64,000 nt of DNA from an uncultured Pelagibacteraceae bacterium (GTDB taxonomy: Bacteria > Pseudomonadota > Alphaproteobacteria > Pelagibacterales > Pelagibacteraceae): the NCBI GenBank assembly GCA_902628275.1, contig CACOMI010000004.1:1-64000 (forward strand). Reading direction: 5' to 3'. Positions 54,701-59,410 of this stretch are shown here, piece by piece. The stretch's first letter is position 1, and every line of letters starts with the position of its first letter. The notes beneath the pieces were generated by a model, which was not told the DNA's origin, searched no databases, and saw only the letters and a program-made list of their open reading frames with translations. Both the position numbers and the translations under genes were made by a program.

Positions 54701-55471
54701 ATGAGCAAACTTCAAATAATTTCAGATAAAAATAAAAAATCGCAAAATATTAAAAAAATATTATTAAAAAAAATTAAATCTTCACAGTTTAAAAAAGAAA
54801 ATCTTATTATTGTTATTGGAGGTGACGGTTTTATGCTTCAAACTTTAAAAAAAAATAAGAATTTAAAAAAGCATTTTTATGGAATTAATTCTGGAAATTA
54901 TGGTTTTCTTATGAACAAATTTTCATCTAAAGATATTATAAAAAATCTGGCTAAAGCGAATTTAATTTCAATTTCTCCTTTAGAAATGATTGTAAAAAAT
55001 AAAAATAATCAAATTAAGAGATCAGTAGCGATAAACGAAGTATCAGTATTAAGACAGAGCAGGCAGGCTGCTGCATTGTCAATTAAACAAGGTTCAAGAC
55101 AAATAATTAAAAAATTAGTTTCAGATGGTGTATTAGTATCAACACCAGCAGGAAGTACAGCTTATAATCTTTCCGTTCATGGACCTATTTTAAGCCTTCA
55201 TTCAAAAAAACTTTCAATATCTCCAATAAGTGCTTTCAGACCTAGAAGATGGAAAGGTAAAATTGTTAATGATAAAACCAAAATTGTTATAACCAATTTA
55301 AATCCATCAAAAAGACCTATAAGTGCTGTTGCAGATAATTTAGAGGTAAGAAATGCTAAATCGATTACAGTAAAAACCAATAATAAATTTAAATTTAATT
55401 TACTATATGATAAAAATAGAAGTTTACAAAAGAAAATTAAAATTGAGCAAATTAGAAAAGAAACGAATTAA
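54701..55471 (+). CDS. nadK: NAD kinase
   Basis: This 256-residue enzyme phosphorylates NAD+ to NADP+. The NADK signature GGDGFMLQTLKK is near residue 40 and the conserved NSGNYGFLMN near 64. The NAD-binding AINEVSVLRQSRQAA is near 107, the diagnostic STPAGSTAYNLSVHGPI near 147, and the C-terminal block RPISAVADNLEV is near 206. The start is four bases after tRNA-Leu with no Shine-Dalgarno. The GFA-family gene follows after five bases. It is core metabolism caught between two mini-elements. Confidence 0.93.
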   Translation: MSKLQIISDKNKKSQNIKKILLKKIKSSQFKKENLIIVIGGDGFMLQTLKKNKNLKKHFYGINSGNYGFLMNKFSSKDIIKNLAKANLISISPLEMIVKNKNNQIKRSVAINEVSVLRQSRQAAALSIKQGSRQIIKKLVSDGVLVSTPAGSTAYNLSVHGPILSLHSKKLSISPISAFRPRRWKGKIVNDKTKIVITNLNPSKRPISAVADNLEVRNAKSITVKTNNKFKFNLLYDKNRSLQKKIKIEQIRKETN

Positions 55472-55476
55472 ATATA

Positions 55477-55920
55477 ATGCATAAATATAGCGGTCGTTGT
55501 AAATGTGAAAAAATTTCTTTTGAAATAAATGGACAACCCACCTGGAAAGTAAACTGTAATTGTAATTGGTGTCAAAAAACAAGCGGAAGTGCTTTTAGAT
55601 CTTTCGTACTTTTTAATGAAAATGAAATAAAATATCTAGGCGATAGACCAACTTCATATGAGGATAAACAAACTGATCATGGTCGATCTATGATAAATTT
55701 ATTTTGCTCTACCTGTGGTACATTAATAGGAATCAAAGTACCAAGTATGAACGAGCAACACTTCTCTATTGGCGTAATAGATCAAAGAAAAGATATTAAT
55801 ATAACTGATAATATATGGGGAGAAGAGGCTTTACAATTTATAAACTATTCAACAGACGCTGAAGTATATAAAAAAGGTTACTGGAATGGTACTGGTGAAA
55901 AAATGAAAAAAAAAAACTGA
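55477..55920 (+). CDS. GFA (glutathione-dependent formaldehyde-activating) family protein
   Basis: This is a 147-residue zinc-binding protein of the GFA/DUF636 family. Zn-ligand cysteines are arranged as GRCKCEKISF (C8, C10), NCNCNWCQKTSGSAFRSFV near residue 27-45, and LFCSTCGTLIGI near 75. Members are annotated as formaldehyde-glutathione condensing enzymes, but most are of unknown activity. Its stop codon (55918-55920) touches the duplicated tRNA-Thr fragment at 55921, so the gene abuts the junction of mini-element B and its last few codons (KMKKKN) may have been shaped by that event. Confidence 0.85.
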   Translation: MHKYSGRCKCEKISFEINGQPTWKVNCNCNWCQKTSGSAFRSFVLFNENEIKYLGDRPTSYEDKQTDHGRSMINLFCSTCGTLIGIKVPSMNEQHFSIGVIDQRKDINITDNIWGEEALQFINYSTDAEVYKKGYWNGTGEKMKKKN

Positions 55921-55972
55921 TGGTGCCCCCGCACGGATTCGAACCGCGGACCTATTGATTACAAATCAATTG
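55921..55972 (-). repeat. Duplicated 3' part of tRNA-Thr (distal att site)
   Basis: This is identical over 52 bases to 57032-57083. On the minus strand it spans the tRNA anticodon arm, variable loop, T arm, acceptor 3' strand and CCA. The D arm and 5' acceptor strand are missing and replaced by TTAAAG sequence, so it is not a functional tRNA. Confidence 0.9.
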
Positions 55973-56027
55973 TTAAAGTTTAAATAAACATTTGTTAGCA
56001 ACAATAATTCTAAAATTTTTTAGACTT

Positions 56028-56048
56028 GGCAACAATCTGACAACAATG
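56028..56048 (+). repeat. Left inner repeat of mini-element B (arm-site-like)
   Basis: GGCAACAATCTGACAACAATGG contains two RCAACAAT words 11 bp apart. It shares 16 identical bases with the right inner repeat. A further AGCAACAAT occurs 31 bases upstream at 55997. Confidence 0.7.
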
Positions 56049-56059
56049 GTAGAGTTTTG

Positions 56060-56941
56060 ATGATGAAAAAACTTTTAGGGATCGTGGTTCTTGGTTTGTT
56101 GTTAATTAGCAATCATTCTTTTGCTGATTGTTACAGTGATCTAAAAACAAGATGGGATCAAAATAAAAATAATAGTGCATATAATACTTATGATAAAGGA
56201 TGGCAAAGGAATCTTACAGGTACATTTACTTTTAATAATCCAACAAAAAATACAATTCAGATCACACAAGTTTCTATAAAAGCAAAAGATGGAAATACAG
56301 TGTATTCTGCAAATCATAATTTAATCATCGATCCTTACACCAAAGATCATCGCATAGGTGTAAAACTAAAGAATAACTTTACCGAAGAAGTAATTGAAGG
56401 ATATTATTATGCTTGTAGATATGCAAAGGCAGGTACATCATCAAAAAATCAATATAAAACAAAGAATAAAAAATCTGATAGCTGGTTTAAGTGGTGGTAT
56501 TTATTATTTATACTTCCAGCTATAGGTTTATTAAAAGGATTTTTCGAGGATATTTCAAGCAAATCAAATAATAAAAAAAATAAATCTTCAGTTAAAAAAA
56601 TTAAATCTGAAAAAGAACATCCAGGGAATTTTATTGAAGATATATGGGATGGAAAAAAACCTTTAGGAGAAACATATTGGTTATACTTTGTTTTAATAAA
56701 CGGAATAATTTCATTTGGTTCAGCATTTTTTGCAGAACTGAATGGTAATAATTTTTACTTTGTACCAGGTTTGATTTCAAATGTTGTAACAATGGTCGGT
56801 GTTTGGAATAGTTCAACATTCTACCAATTAAAAAAAATTGAAGATAAACAACCTTATGGTTGGGCGTATGCCGCAAAAATATCAGTAGTTTTAAATGGTA
56901 TCTCAATAGCTGCTACAGCAATTCAGGTTTTTACTTCTTAA
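56060..56941 (+). CDS. Secreted/multi-pass membrane protein, cargo of mini-element B
   Basis: This protein of about 293 residues starts at ATG 56060 or 56063; an in-frame TTG at 56057 is less likely. It has a signal peptide (KKLLGIVVLGLLLISNHSFA), then a periplasmic beta-rich domain of about 100 residues (LTGTFTFNNPTKNTIQITQVSIKAKDG). Four hydrophobic helices follow near residues 145-162, 208-228, 236-252 and 268-290, separated by a lysine/serine-rich linker (SKSNNKKNKSSVKK). I do not recognise the family. Its position, where an integrase would be expected, and its envelope location suggest a surface or exclusion role, but that is speculation. Confidence 0.75.
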   Translation: MMKKLLGIVVLGLLLISNHSFADCYSDLKTRWDQNKNNSAYNTYDKGWQRNLTGTFTFNNPTKNTIQITQVSIKAKDGNTVYSANHNLIIDPYTKDHRIGVKLKNNFTEEVIEGYYYACRYAKAGTSSKNQYKTKNKKSDSWFKWWYLLFILPAIGLLKGFFEDISSKSNNKKNKSSVKKIKSEKEHPGNFIEDIWDGKKPLGETYWLYFVLINGIISFGSAFFAELNGNNFYFVPGLISNVVTMVGVWNSSTFYQLKKIEDKQPYGWAYAAKISVVLNGISIAATAIQVFTS

Positions 56942-56956
56942 TTGACTTCTTGATTT

Positions 56957-56974
56957 GACAACAATCTGACAACA
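56957..56974 (+). repeat. Right inner repeat of mini-element B (arm-site-like)
   Basis: GACAACAATCTGACAACA is the direct copy of the left inner repeat, with GACAACA recurring at an 11-bp period. TTATTGTCGT just downstream (56976-56985) is an inverted version of the same word. Confidence 0.7.
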
Positions 56975-57031
56975 CTTATTGTCGTAAGAATAGTTTTTGC
57001 ATAAATTATTTTGATAAAAAAGTAAGTGAAG

Positions 57032-57107
57032 TGGTGCCCCCGCACGGATTCGAACCGCGGACCTATTGATTACAAATCAATTGCTCTACCAGCTGAGCTA
57101 CAAGGGC
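57032..57107 (-). tRNA. tRNA-Thr (anticodon TGT)
   Basis: This is a 76-base tRNA on the minus strand with encoded CCA. The acceptor GCCCTTG pairs with CGGGGGC through several G-U pairs. The D arm is AGCTCAGCTGGTAGAGC, the anticodon loop TTTGTAA gives TGT, and the T arm has GGTTCGAATCC. Its 3' 52 bases are duplicated at 55921, marking it as an integration target. Confidence 0.96.
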
Positions 57108-57194: not shown

Positions 57195-58433
57195 ATGAAT
57201 AAAAAAAAGCTTAAAATTATATCATTATTTGCAGGTGCCGGCGGTATGGACCTTGGTTTTAAGAATGCAGGATTTGAAATTATTTGGGCAAATGATTTTG
57301 ACCCAGATTCAGTAAAAACATACAAAAGAAATTTTGGTAATCATATAGTCCTAGGGGATATCGAAAAAATTAGAACAAATAATGTACCTGATAATCCTGA
57401 TGTGGTTATAGGAGGTTTTCCATGCCAAGGCTTTTCAATTGCAAATTTAGGTAGAAGTGTAGATGACAGTAGAAATAAGCTCTATAAGCAGATGCTACGA
57501 GTCATCAGAGTAAAAAAACCAAAATATTTTGTTGCTGAAAATGTTTCAGGAATTTTAACACTTGGCAAAGGTATTGTTATGCAAAAAATCATAAAAGATT
57601 TTAAAAGCATAGGTTATAAGGTTGATTACAAAATATTAAATGCTGCAGATTATGGTGTCCCGCAAGCTAGAAAAAGAGTTTTTATAATTGGAAATAGGCT
57701 AAATTTAGAAAATCCTTTTCCAAAACAATCTCATCAAGCACCAACTCAAGAAAATGGATTGTTTAATGATTTACTTGAAAATCACATTACAACTAAAGAA
57801 GCAATCGGCTTTTTATCAAAGACTTCATTAACTAATAAAACTTTATTTGTTAATAATAGGGTTATTCATAACCATATTGGTGACACTAATGTACATGATG
57901 AATTCTGGGGACGTAAGTATCCTGTAAACCAATTTGATATCTGTGATTATTTAAAAAAATGGAGAAAAAAAGCTGGAATTTCCACAAAGAAAGTCGATGA
58001 ACATTTTGGTTATGCTCATACTGCTGGTCATTGGTTTAGAAAAGATAATAATTCAGGAAGTATACCAAACCCTGATGATTGGAGAGGTTTAAAAAAATTA
58101 TTAGGATTTGATACAAAGTATGACAAACAAGTAACTACACTTGTAAAAAAGAAAATTAAATTTGAACAATCTTTAAGAATTACAAATTGGAAAACTCCAA
58201 GTGATACTTTAACTGCTACAAGTCCTGAAATTCATGTAAATTTAAAAAGAAGGTTATCTGTTAGAGAATGTGCAATATTACAAACCTTCCCAGACGATTT
58301 TATTTTTGAGGGTGCAACATTTAGAAGTATGCACAAACAAATTGGTAATGCTGTGCCAGTTTTATTAGCTGAAAAAGTTGCAAAAGAAATCAAGAAGATG
58401 ATTTTATCTAAATTATTTAGAAGAGCTGCTTAA
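57195..58433 (+). CDS. DNA (cytosine-5)-methyltransferase of a probable type II restriction-modification system
   Basis: This is a 412-residue m5C methyltransferase with all main motifs in order: I FAGAGGMDLGF (12-22), IV GGFPCQGFS with catalytic C77, VI AENV (114-117), VIII QARKRVFIIG (157-166), IX RLSVRECAILQTFPDDF (353-369) and X QIGNAVPVLLAEKV (382-395). The target-recognition region (about 170-350) holds an unusual insert, WRKKAGISTKKVDEHFGYAHTAGHWFR (256-282), resembling a helix-turn-helix-like module also seen in other methylases. It overlaps the convergent nuclease gene by four bases. The target sequence cannot be read from the protein. It is accessory DNA next to tRNA-Thr. Confidence 0.92.
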   Translation: MNKKKLKIISLFAGAGGMDLGFKNAGFEIIWANDFDPDSVKTYKRNFGNHIVLGDIEKIRTNNVPDNPDVVIGGFPCQGFSIANLGRSVDDSRNKLYKQMLRVIRVKKPKYFVAENVSGILTLGKGIVMQKIIKDFKSIGYKVDYKILNAADYGVPQARKRVFIIGNRLNLENPFPKQSHQAPTQENGLFNDLLENHITTKEAIGFLSKTSLTNKTLFVNNRVIHNHIGDTNVHDEFWGRKYPVNQFDICDYLKKWRKKAGISTKKVDEHFGYAHTAGHWFRKDNNSGSIPNPDDWRGLKKLLGFDTKYDKQVTTLVKKKIKFEQSLRITNWKTPSDTLTATSPEIHVNLKRRLSVRECAILQTFPDDFIFEGATFRSMHKQIGNAVPVLLAEKVAKEIKKMILSKLFRRAA

Positions 58434-59410
58434 AATACATATTTTTTAAAGTTAACATAATCTCTATTTAACCTTGCAGCATCACCACCTAAGATAATAC
58501 AATATTTATTTTTTTGTAAAGCTCTCACAGCATGTTCATTATGATAGTTTGGATGTTTTAAAGTCTTATCAAGATAAAAAACAAGTTTTTTACCTTTCTC
58601 TATATTTTTTAGTTTTATTTCTATCCATGAATTTTTTTTATTATCTAATGGTTTATATTTTTGATGATAGTTTTTTGTTGAGGTGATGTATTCATATGTT
58701 TTAAATCCCTGTAAAATATTACTTCTAGTGTTTTGATCTATTAATAAACCATTTGGAACACAAGCTATTGCTAAAGACAAATTTTTGTAACTTCTTTTTT
58801 TAAATTGATTTAAGTTATTAATTCCAAGACTAATACCAGCATTTTTTACTGATTGACCAGCTTCAATATTTTCAAATGAGTAATTGTCAGCATATACAAG
58901 TTTGAACATAAAGGTAAAATTTGGTTTAAAATTTTTAATAGGGTTTTGATGACCTTCGTAATGAAAACCTGAAAAGACAGTTTCATCTTCAAGACATGTT
59001 TTATAAAGAGGAGGACATTGAAATGTCATTTGATTTGGTGATATTGATATATCTTTAGCATCACCAGGGTTTTTAAGTATATTAACTGTCTTGCAGTCAA
59101 TATTTATATAACAATCATCAAGTTCGAAAATTAAATCAGAAGATATAATTGATGGAGCAAGTTTTATATTAATATTTTTTTTAAAAAAATAACTAATAAT
59201 ATGAAAAGTAACAAGTCTTTCAAAAGGTGTTGATATTAAATTTGGTCTTGTTGTTTTGGCATATAGATCTTCATAATTTTCGTTAATTTCATTTTGTGCA
59301 TTTTCACAAAAATTATGAATTTTCAAATCATTGAGTAAATTATCTTCGCAAAATTTTAGATAGAAATCTTGAAGTTTTTGAATTTCATTTATATCTATAT
59401 TTTCAGTCAT
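58430..59410 (-). CDS. Putative type II restriction endonuclease (PD-(D/E)xK fold)
   Basis: This 326-residue protein of no recognised family converges tail-to-tail with the cytosine methyltransferase (four-base overlap), the layout of many type II R-M pairs. A PD-(D/E)xK-like core is visible: E64 in STPFERLVTFHI, D92 in SSDLIFELDD, and D105-C-K107 in YINIDCKTVN, with the strand-turn-strand spacing expected. A helical N-terminus (residues 1-50) and a C-terminal domain of about 200 residues with a KNYHQKYKPLDNKKNSWIEIKL segment follow. It should cut the sequence methylated by its neighbour. Nuclease identity rests on context and these residues. Confidence 0.68.
   Translation of the reverse strand: MTENIDINEIQKLQDFYLKFCEDNLLNDLKIHNFCENAQNEINENYEDLYAKTTRPNLISTPFERLVTFHIISYFFKKNINIKLAPSIISSDLIFELDDCYINIDCKTVNILKNPGDAKDISISPNQMTFQCPPLYKTCLEDETVFSGFHYEGHQNPIKNFKPNFTFMFKLVYADNYSFENIEAGQSVKNAGISLGINNLNQFKKRSYKNLSLAIACVPNGLLIDQNTRSNILQGFKTYEYITSTKNYHQKYKPLDNKKNSWIEIKLKNIEKGKKLVFYLDKTLKHPNYHNEHAVRALQKNKYCIILGGDAARLNRDYVNFKKYVF

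Follow-up and report, generated by a model that had tools for sequence, protein, structure and literature searches.

Comparison of SAR11 genomes around a single tRNA-Thr gene points to a widespread family of small, integrase-free cassettes that is real, mobile and of the CIME kind. One such unit, 1,111 bp from core to core, lies in the stretch of DNA analysed here (the window: 64,000 nt from an uncultured Pelagibacteraceae bacterium, GCA_902628275.1, contig CACOMI010000004.1, positions 1-64,000, forward strand) and is quite probably a CIME-like, non-autonomous integrative cassette that would be moved in trans by satellite or phage integrases. As judged from sequence, the comparison reveals a family with shared ends, empty sites, matched arms, movement from core to core and integrase-bearing elements with the same layout. 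SAR11 bacteria rank among the most numerous cells of the ocean, and few mobile elements are known from their small genomes. A minimal system of cassettes at one tRNA would account for the turnover of single genes in these bacteria, candidate anti-phage genes included.

The window unit is bracketed by a perfect 52-bp repeat, the attachment core, with its left copy at 55921-55972 and its right copy at 57032-57083, both on the minus strand. Because ARAGORN places an intact tRNA-Thr(UGT) gene (anticodon TGT), the integration target, at 57032-57107 on the minus strand, the repeat corresponds to the 3' part of this gene, and the right copy lies within it. Each end also carries the 16-nt arm site CAACAATCTGACAACA on the plus strand, exactly 57 nt from its core copy (left arm 56030-56045, right arm 56959-56974; both located by sequence search, with the left one also supported by the matched-arms test below). 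The arms contain a CAACA-type word with an 11-bp period (CAACAATCTGA followed by CAACA), such that repeat, arm spacing and periodicity are all confirmed as originally described. At up to three mismatches, CAACAATCTGACAACA occurs in the 64-kb window only at the two arm places, although two or more matches also turned up in 37 of 100 shuffles at this setting; at up to two mismatches, the same two places are its only occurrences in the 1.14-Mb assembly.

The unit contains one cargo ORF only (56057-56941, plus strand), which encodes 294 aa from a TTG start, with an ATG at 56060. The protein is secreted or membrane-like, with a signal-peptide-like N-terminus and hydrophobic stretches as judged by eye. 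Its description as an envelope protein is no more than plausible, since Pfam gave no match at E 0.01 and the C-terminal part resembles DUF805 only weakly, at E 0.21. Partial relatives, 28-43% identical, occur in 8 of the 239 other genomes searched. An integrase HMM found no match in the six frames of the unit. The left arm lies inside a promoter-like sequence (56026-56055, plus strand; TTGGCA, 18 nt, TAGAGT, with TG ahead of the second hexamer) that agrees with the consensus at 9 of 12 positions; the promoter scan of the region found 14 sites where shuffles average 7.4 (sd 2.5), and such a consensus match is no evidence of function.

To the left of the site lies an NAD kinase gene (54701-55471, plus strand; Pfam), and a GFA-type gene (55477-55920) sits between it and the left core. 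Among the loci examined, GFA adjoins the core only in the window genome and in G161 (L048; protein 91% identical), where the same GFA gene and core are followed by different units. Beyond the tRNA, between tRNA-Thr and an rRNA-methyltransferase-like gene, positions 57195-59410 hold a C5 cytosine methyltransferase gene (Pfam DNA_methylase) and an opposed ORF that has no Pfam match, possibly a restriction pair. As the spacing from tRNA-Thr to tRNA-Tyr is about 1 kb in most relatives fetched, this stretch represents a separate insertion, on the far side of the tRNA from the unit.

The tRNA-Thr core (32-nt core, at most one mismatch) was found in 280 of 399 genus genomes, with at least two copies in 95 and at least three in 19; these tallies were counted by hand, with copy places listed for part of the genomes. 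Opposite-strand copies appeared in two of the 95 multi-core genomes (G138 and G153) among the matches listed, and G106 holds five cores in tandem within 7.5 kb. We fetched 57 loci, 37 with at least two core copies and 20 with one. The gene order in the loci examined was tRNA-Leu, NAD kinase, unit and tRNA-Thr, followed by tRNA-Tyr, -Gly and -Trp where the locus was long enough, and the Pelagibacteraceae loci examined represent one locus with common ends and differing cargo. Seven of the 20 single-copy loci are empty sites in which the end of the NAD kinase gene directly abuts tRNA-Thr. Empty sites had been suggested as a check and do exist, but it is the NAD-kinase stop rather than the GFA stop that abuts the tRNA in relatives. 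Among the other single-copy loci, three (L193, L200 and L206) have arms but lack a left core within the stretch fetched, and L201 and L207 hold a slightly diverged left core despite being listed as single-copy. L203 and L205 were left out of the unit counts for their weak left match (84-85%). The proposal of a very small tRNA-targeted element is upheld and extends to a large integrase-free family at tRNA-Thr.

The exact arm 16-mer CAACAATCTGACAACA occurs in 6 of 201 genus genomes. In the larger genome_contigs collection it was found in at least 117 stretches, at least 23 of which also hold the tRNA-Thr core, all titled Pelagibacteraceae; none of the 25 viral stretches that contain the 16-mer has this core. 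In large collections, the exact 16-mer lacks specificity.

Near-identical units in diverged genomes provide the clearest sign of movement. Specifically, over 1,070 bp the first of the G106 units agrees at 99.9% with the only unit of G244, whereas their flanks beyond tRNA-Thr are only 82.7% identical; the identity sets in with the first base of the left core and stops near the end of the right core. This confinement to the cores despite a diverged flank indicates that the units move as units. L178 and L224 are likewise 100% identical over 762 bp, with a flank at 83.4%. As to the activity that had been called recent or maintained, G106 and G244 bear out movement within the family, but not a recent move of the window copy, whose cargo has only the partial relatives given above. 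The view that the tRNA 3' end was duplicated locally long ago, with no mobility, has next to no likelihood: nothing in its favour came to light, empty sites exist, relatives carry different cargo at the same site, and near-identical units occur in diverged genomes. The refuting case, in which all relatives would share the same 1.1 kb with no empty site, is contradicted by the seven empty loci and the differing cargo.

A more serious alternative, though still an improbable one, is that the units are remnants of satellites that lost their integrase and are now immobile, their variety arising by homologous recombination between cores or flanks. Left cores are indeed decayed in some loci (82% in L168, 85% in L385), the L201 cassette retains a truncated integrase beside other genes, and the available text of a study of SAR11 variation describes frequent recombination in coastal SAR11 (PMC2217521). 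Against decay stand the transfer from core to core with unrelated sequence on either side, the rarity of integrase traces (one of 52 units for the L154 type introduced below), the finding that L212 and L216 differ in arm type while their cargo is related (93.4% identical over 960 bp) and the retention of arms that match within units.

We separated 45 units with class I ends and seven larger ones (3.4-9.9 kb; L179, L181-L185 and L209) with another left end. From core to core, class I units measure about 0.7-4 kb. Their arm words vary (CAACA, GCAACA, CGACACAC, GTCACAC, TAACACAC, GGTAACAC, GGCACAAT and CCGCA) but keep the 11-bp period and a near-constant place in the unit. Across 46 units (the 45 of class I plus the window unit, with related units counted separately), left and right ends agreed in their best 16-nt match at an average of 13.74 positions within units and 11.38 between units, a within-unit value that none of 20,000 permutations reached. 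With the right end reverse-complemented, the difference shrank to 9.93 versus 9.63, and in 10 of the 46 units the own right end fell outside the best 10%. The paired arm-like repeats first seen in the window are therefore a property of the family, with arms matched within units. The position of the cargo is similarly conserved, as the first cargo ORF of class I units mostly starts 136-148 nt from the first core base, while the integrase or its remnant starts at 150 nt in L154, 151 nt in G248 and 144 nt in L201. This agrees with the idea that cargo occupies the place of an integrase gene.

Integrase-bearing elements with this layout exist in viral and SAR11 sequences. The 8.9-kb viral contig L154 matches the 52-bp core exactly and encodes an integrase, which begins 98 nt past the core, as well as a terminase small subunit and an AAA-domain protein. 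Its right arm CCGCAATCTGTCCGCA, about 110 nt from the core as against mostly 73-94 nt in cassettes, matches the right arm of cassette L169_9896 at 16 of 16 positions (best of 60 shuffles 13), the left arm of that cassette also matches at 14 of 16, and two proteins of L154 have relatives among the cassette cargo (at 59% over 70 aa and at 31% over 147 aa). In the SAR11 genome G248, the NAD kinase is followed by the 52-bp core at 100% and then by an integrase 73% identical to that of L154, in an element cut by the contig end. The G248 arm CTGCAACACTACTGCAACA matches cassettes at 14/16, a level also attained by the best of 60 shuffles; its four best matches are all right arms of GCAACA-type cassettes. 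A related integrase (76% identical to that of L154) belongs to a 6.5-kb element at tRNA-Asn in G253 that also has a helicase/primase-like gene. L182 (7.7 kb, tRNA-Thr core) carries a primase-like gene together with an integrase that has an Arm-DNA-bind_3 domain; in arm sequence it is similar to the integrase-free L181 and L209 (13-15/16). Elements with the core and arm layout were thus found (L154, G248), as had been sought, but none with CAACA arms in the genomes and viral contigs searched.

Traces of the L154-type integrase were absent from the window unit and from 51 of the 52 other units, the exception being L201, whose 78-codon remnant is 66% identical to the L154 N-terminus. Relatives at E 1e-8 occur in 21 of 399 genus genomes and exceed 70% identity in two; matches in G452 and G548 reach 46% and 44%. 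Close relatives number one among viral contigs and none in the window genome. Among phage records, there were 324 matches to the L154 integrase, all below 60% identity, and no record matched 80% of the tRNA-Thr end. The full core matched two viral contigs, L154 and L153, the latter with a complete tRNA-Thr gene, and a shorter core pattern matched 22 more, of which ARAGORN finds a complete tRNA-Thr in 21 and none in L278; none of these 22 matches the L154 integrase. The post-core pattern of integrase-bearing elements picked out G120, where a decayed core, arms and cargo are present but nothing matches the integrase. In viral sequences it hit 77 stretches, and among the matches listed all but L154 are without the core and likely reflect coincidence in coding sequence. 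Integrase genes also lie near perfect partial duplicates of tRNA-Met(CAT) in six loci of other SAR11 (L249, L250, L252, L258, L261 and L262) and of tRNA-Gly(GCC) in L260, which may represent further element families.

A mover could also reside in the host. The window assembly encodes a 317-aa tyrosine recombinase (G000 C5:3890-4840, also L152:3890-4840), its only Pfam phage-integrase match, and 142 of 201 genus genomes have the gene, as might suit an enzyme that moves cassettes in the manner of an integron integrase. Pfam, however, finds SAM-like N-terminal and catalytic domains but no arm-binding domain, and a single enzyme would not account for several arm specificities, which makes this reading very unlikely. 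It is instead probable that phage-like elements targeting the same site supply the enzymes that move the integrase-free cassettes.

Among 100 class I proteins, including that of the window, 58 Pfam families had a match. Within the best 25 of these families, the N_methyl pilin motif was found in 15 proteins, and Mrr_cat, SAD_SRA, DpnI, T5orf172, NucS_C, Mom and Trypsin_2 in one or two each. PADLOC reported 28 families, of which the best 25 are mostly candidate ones (PDC-S11, PDC-S02, PDC-S57) and restriction enzymes that each match one or two proteins. These tallies suggest defence-like cargo in some cassettes but not in most. Many cassettes (L168-L224; in the window from 56060) encode a protein that begins with the near-identical signal-peptide-like start MKKLLGIVVLGLLLSGNAYA and continues into unrelated sequence, often as the second gene. 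Runs of type IV pilin-like genes with near-identical N-termini occur at L169:4345-8349, L213:440-2730 and L218:1-2735.

The available data are compatible with a model in which the cassette ends represent the two halves of a satellite- or phage-type attachment site, each composed of the tRNA-Thr 3' core and an arm site of words recurring every 11 bp, while the cargo gene takes about the start position that the integrase gene has in full-size elements. Since both arms are kept and the integrase gene is replaced by cargo, an outside integrase could act on the cassette. We infer that such an enzyme, from a satellite or phage with the same tRNA-Thr and the same arm words, would act in trans and either cut the cassette out or integrate an arriving copy within the core, thereby leaving the tRNA intact; repeated insertion would build up tandem arrays, and passage between cells by some route is implied. 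Arm binding may also control the cargo, which would use the promoter-like sequence around the left arm. A broader and tentative reading, which we hold to be possible but somewhat short of an even chance, sees the SAR11 tRNA-Thr as an integron-like cassette platform that lacks a resident integrase: integrases of infecting satellites or phages would move dozens of tiny cassettes in and out, several of them bearing nuclease or candidate anti-phage genes, the arm words would serve as an address code that pairs integrase with cassette, and an arriving integrase could switch cargo because the left arm lies within the cargo's promoter-like sequence. The matched arm words provide a code that can be tested and that ties cassettes to the integrases potentially able to move them.

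In the mostly open-access literature, we found nothing on cassettes at the SAR11 tRNA-Thr, and earlier print in subscription journals or bioRxiv is possible; the available text of papers on SAR11 ecogenomics (PMC7318151) and variation (PMC2217521) reports no such cassettes. The tycheposon parallel drawn in the original prediction holds loosely, as tycheposons span 4-200 kb (PMC10872708) and the islands described in the accessible part of that paper contain a tyrosine recombinase, whereas the window unit has 1,111 bp and no recombinase; CIMEs are closer. Nor is the window unit an autonomous phage satellite of PICI or P4 type, with its own integrase and replication genes, as it carries one cargo gene. 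The phage satellites L246, L182 and L154 share the attachment architecture of the cassettes, L154 and L182 on the same tRNA-Thr core, but, unlike the cassettes, possess an integrase along with primase/helicase-type genes and, in L154, a terminase small subunit. Additive flexible islands at tRNAs of Ca. Methylopumilus (PMC10872708) and Ca. Actinomarinales (PMC7771536) similarly present varied cassettes marked by tRNA-end repeats in streamlined aquatic bacteria; they involve other hosts and tRNAs, and the available text of both papers does not describe arm sites, arm-matched units or integrase partners. The Dehalococcoides ssrA islands are also tandem and bounded by fragments of one RNA gene, and 15 that are without an integration module were suggested to be CIMEs; they differ in using a serine recombinase and a tmRNA target, and paired arm sites are not described in the available text (PMC3146451). 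CIMEs, according to the accessible part of PMC5704250, keep attL and attR, lack integration and transfer genes and accrete in tandem at one target. The window unit resembles them in its flanking attL/attR-type repeat (52 bp, perfect, from the tRNA-Thr 3' part) and in the absence of integration genes (a single ORF with no Pfam match, and a negative integrase HMM), and the SAR11 loci do so in their tandem arrays at one target. The SAR11 units differ in being mostly 0.7-3 kb, with dozens of kinds at one site, in keeping an arm pair matched within each unit with cargo at the integrase position, and in having integrase-bearing relatives that look like phage satellites rather than conjugative elements.
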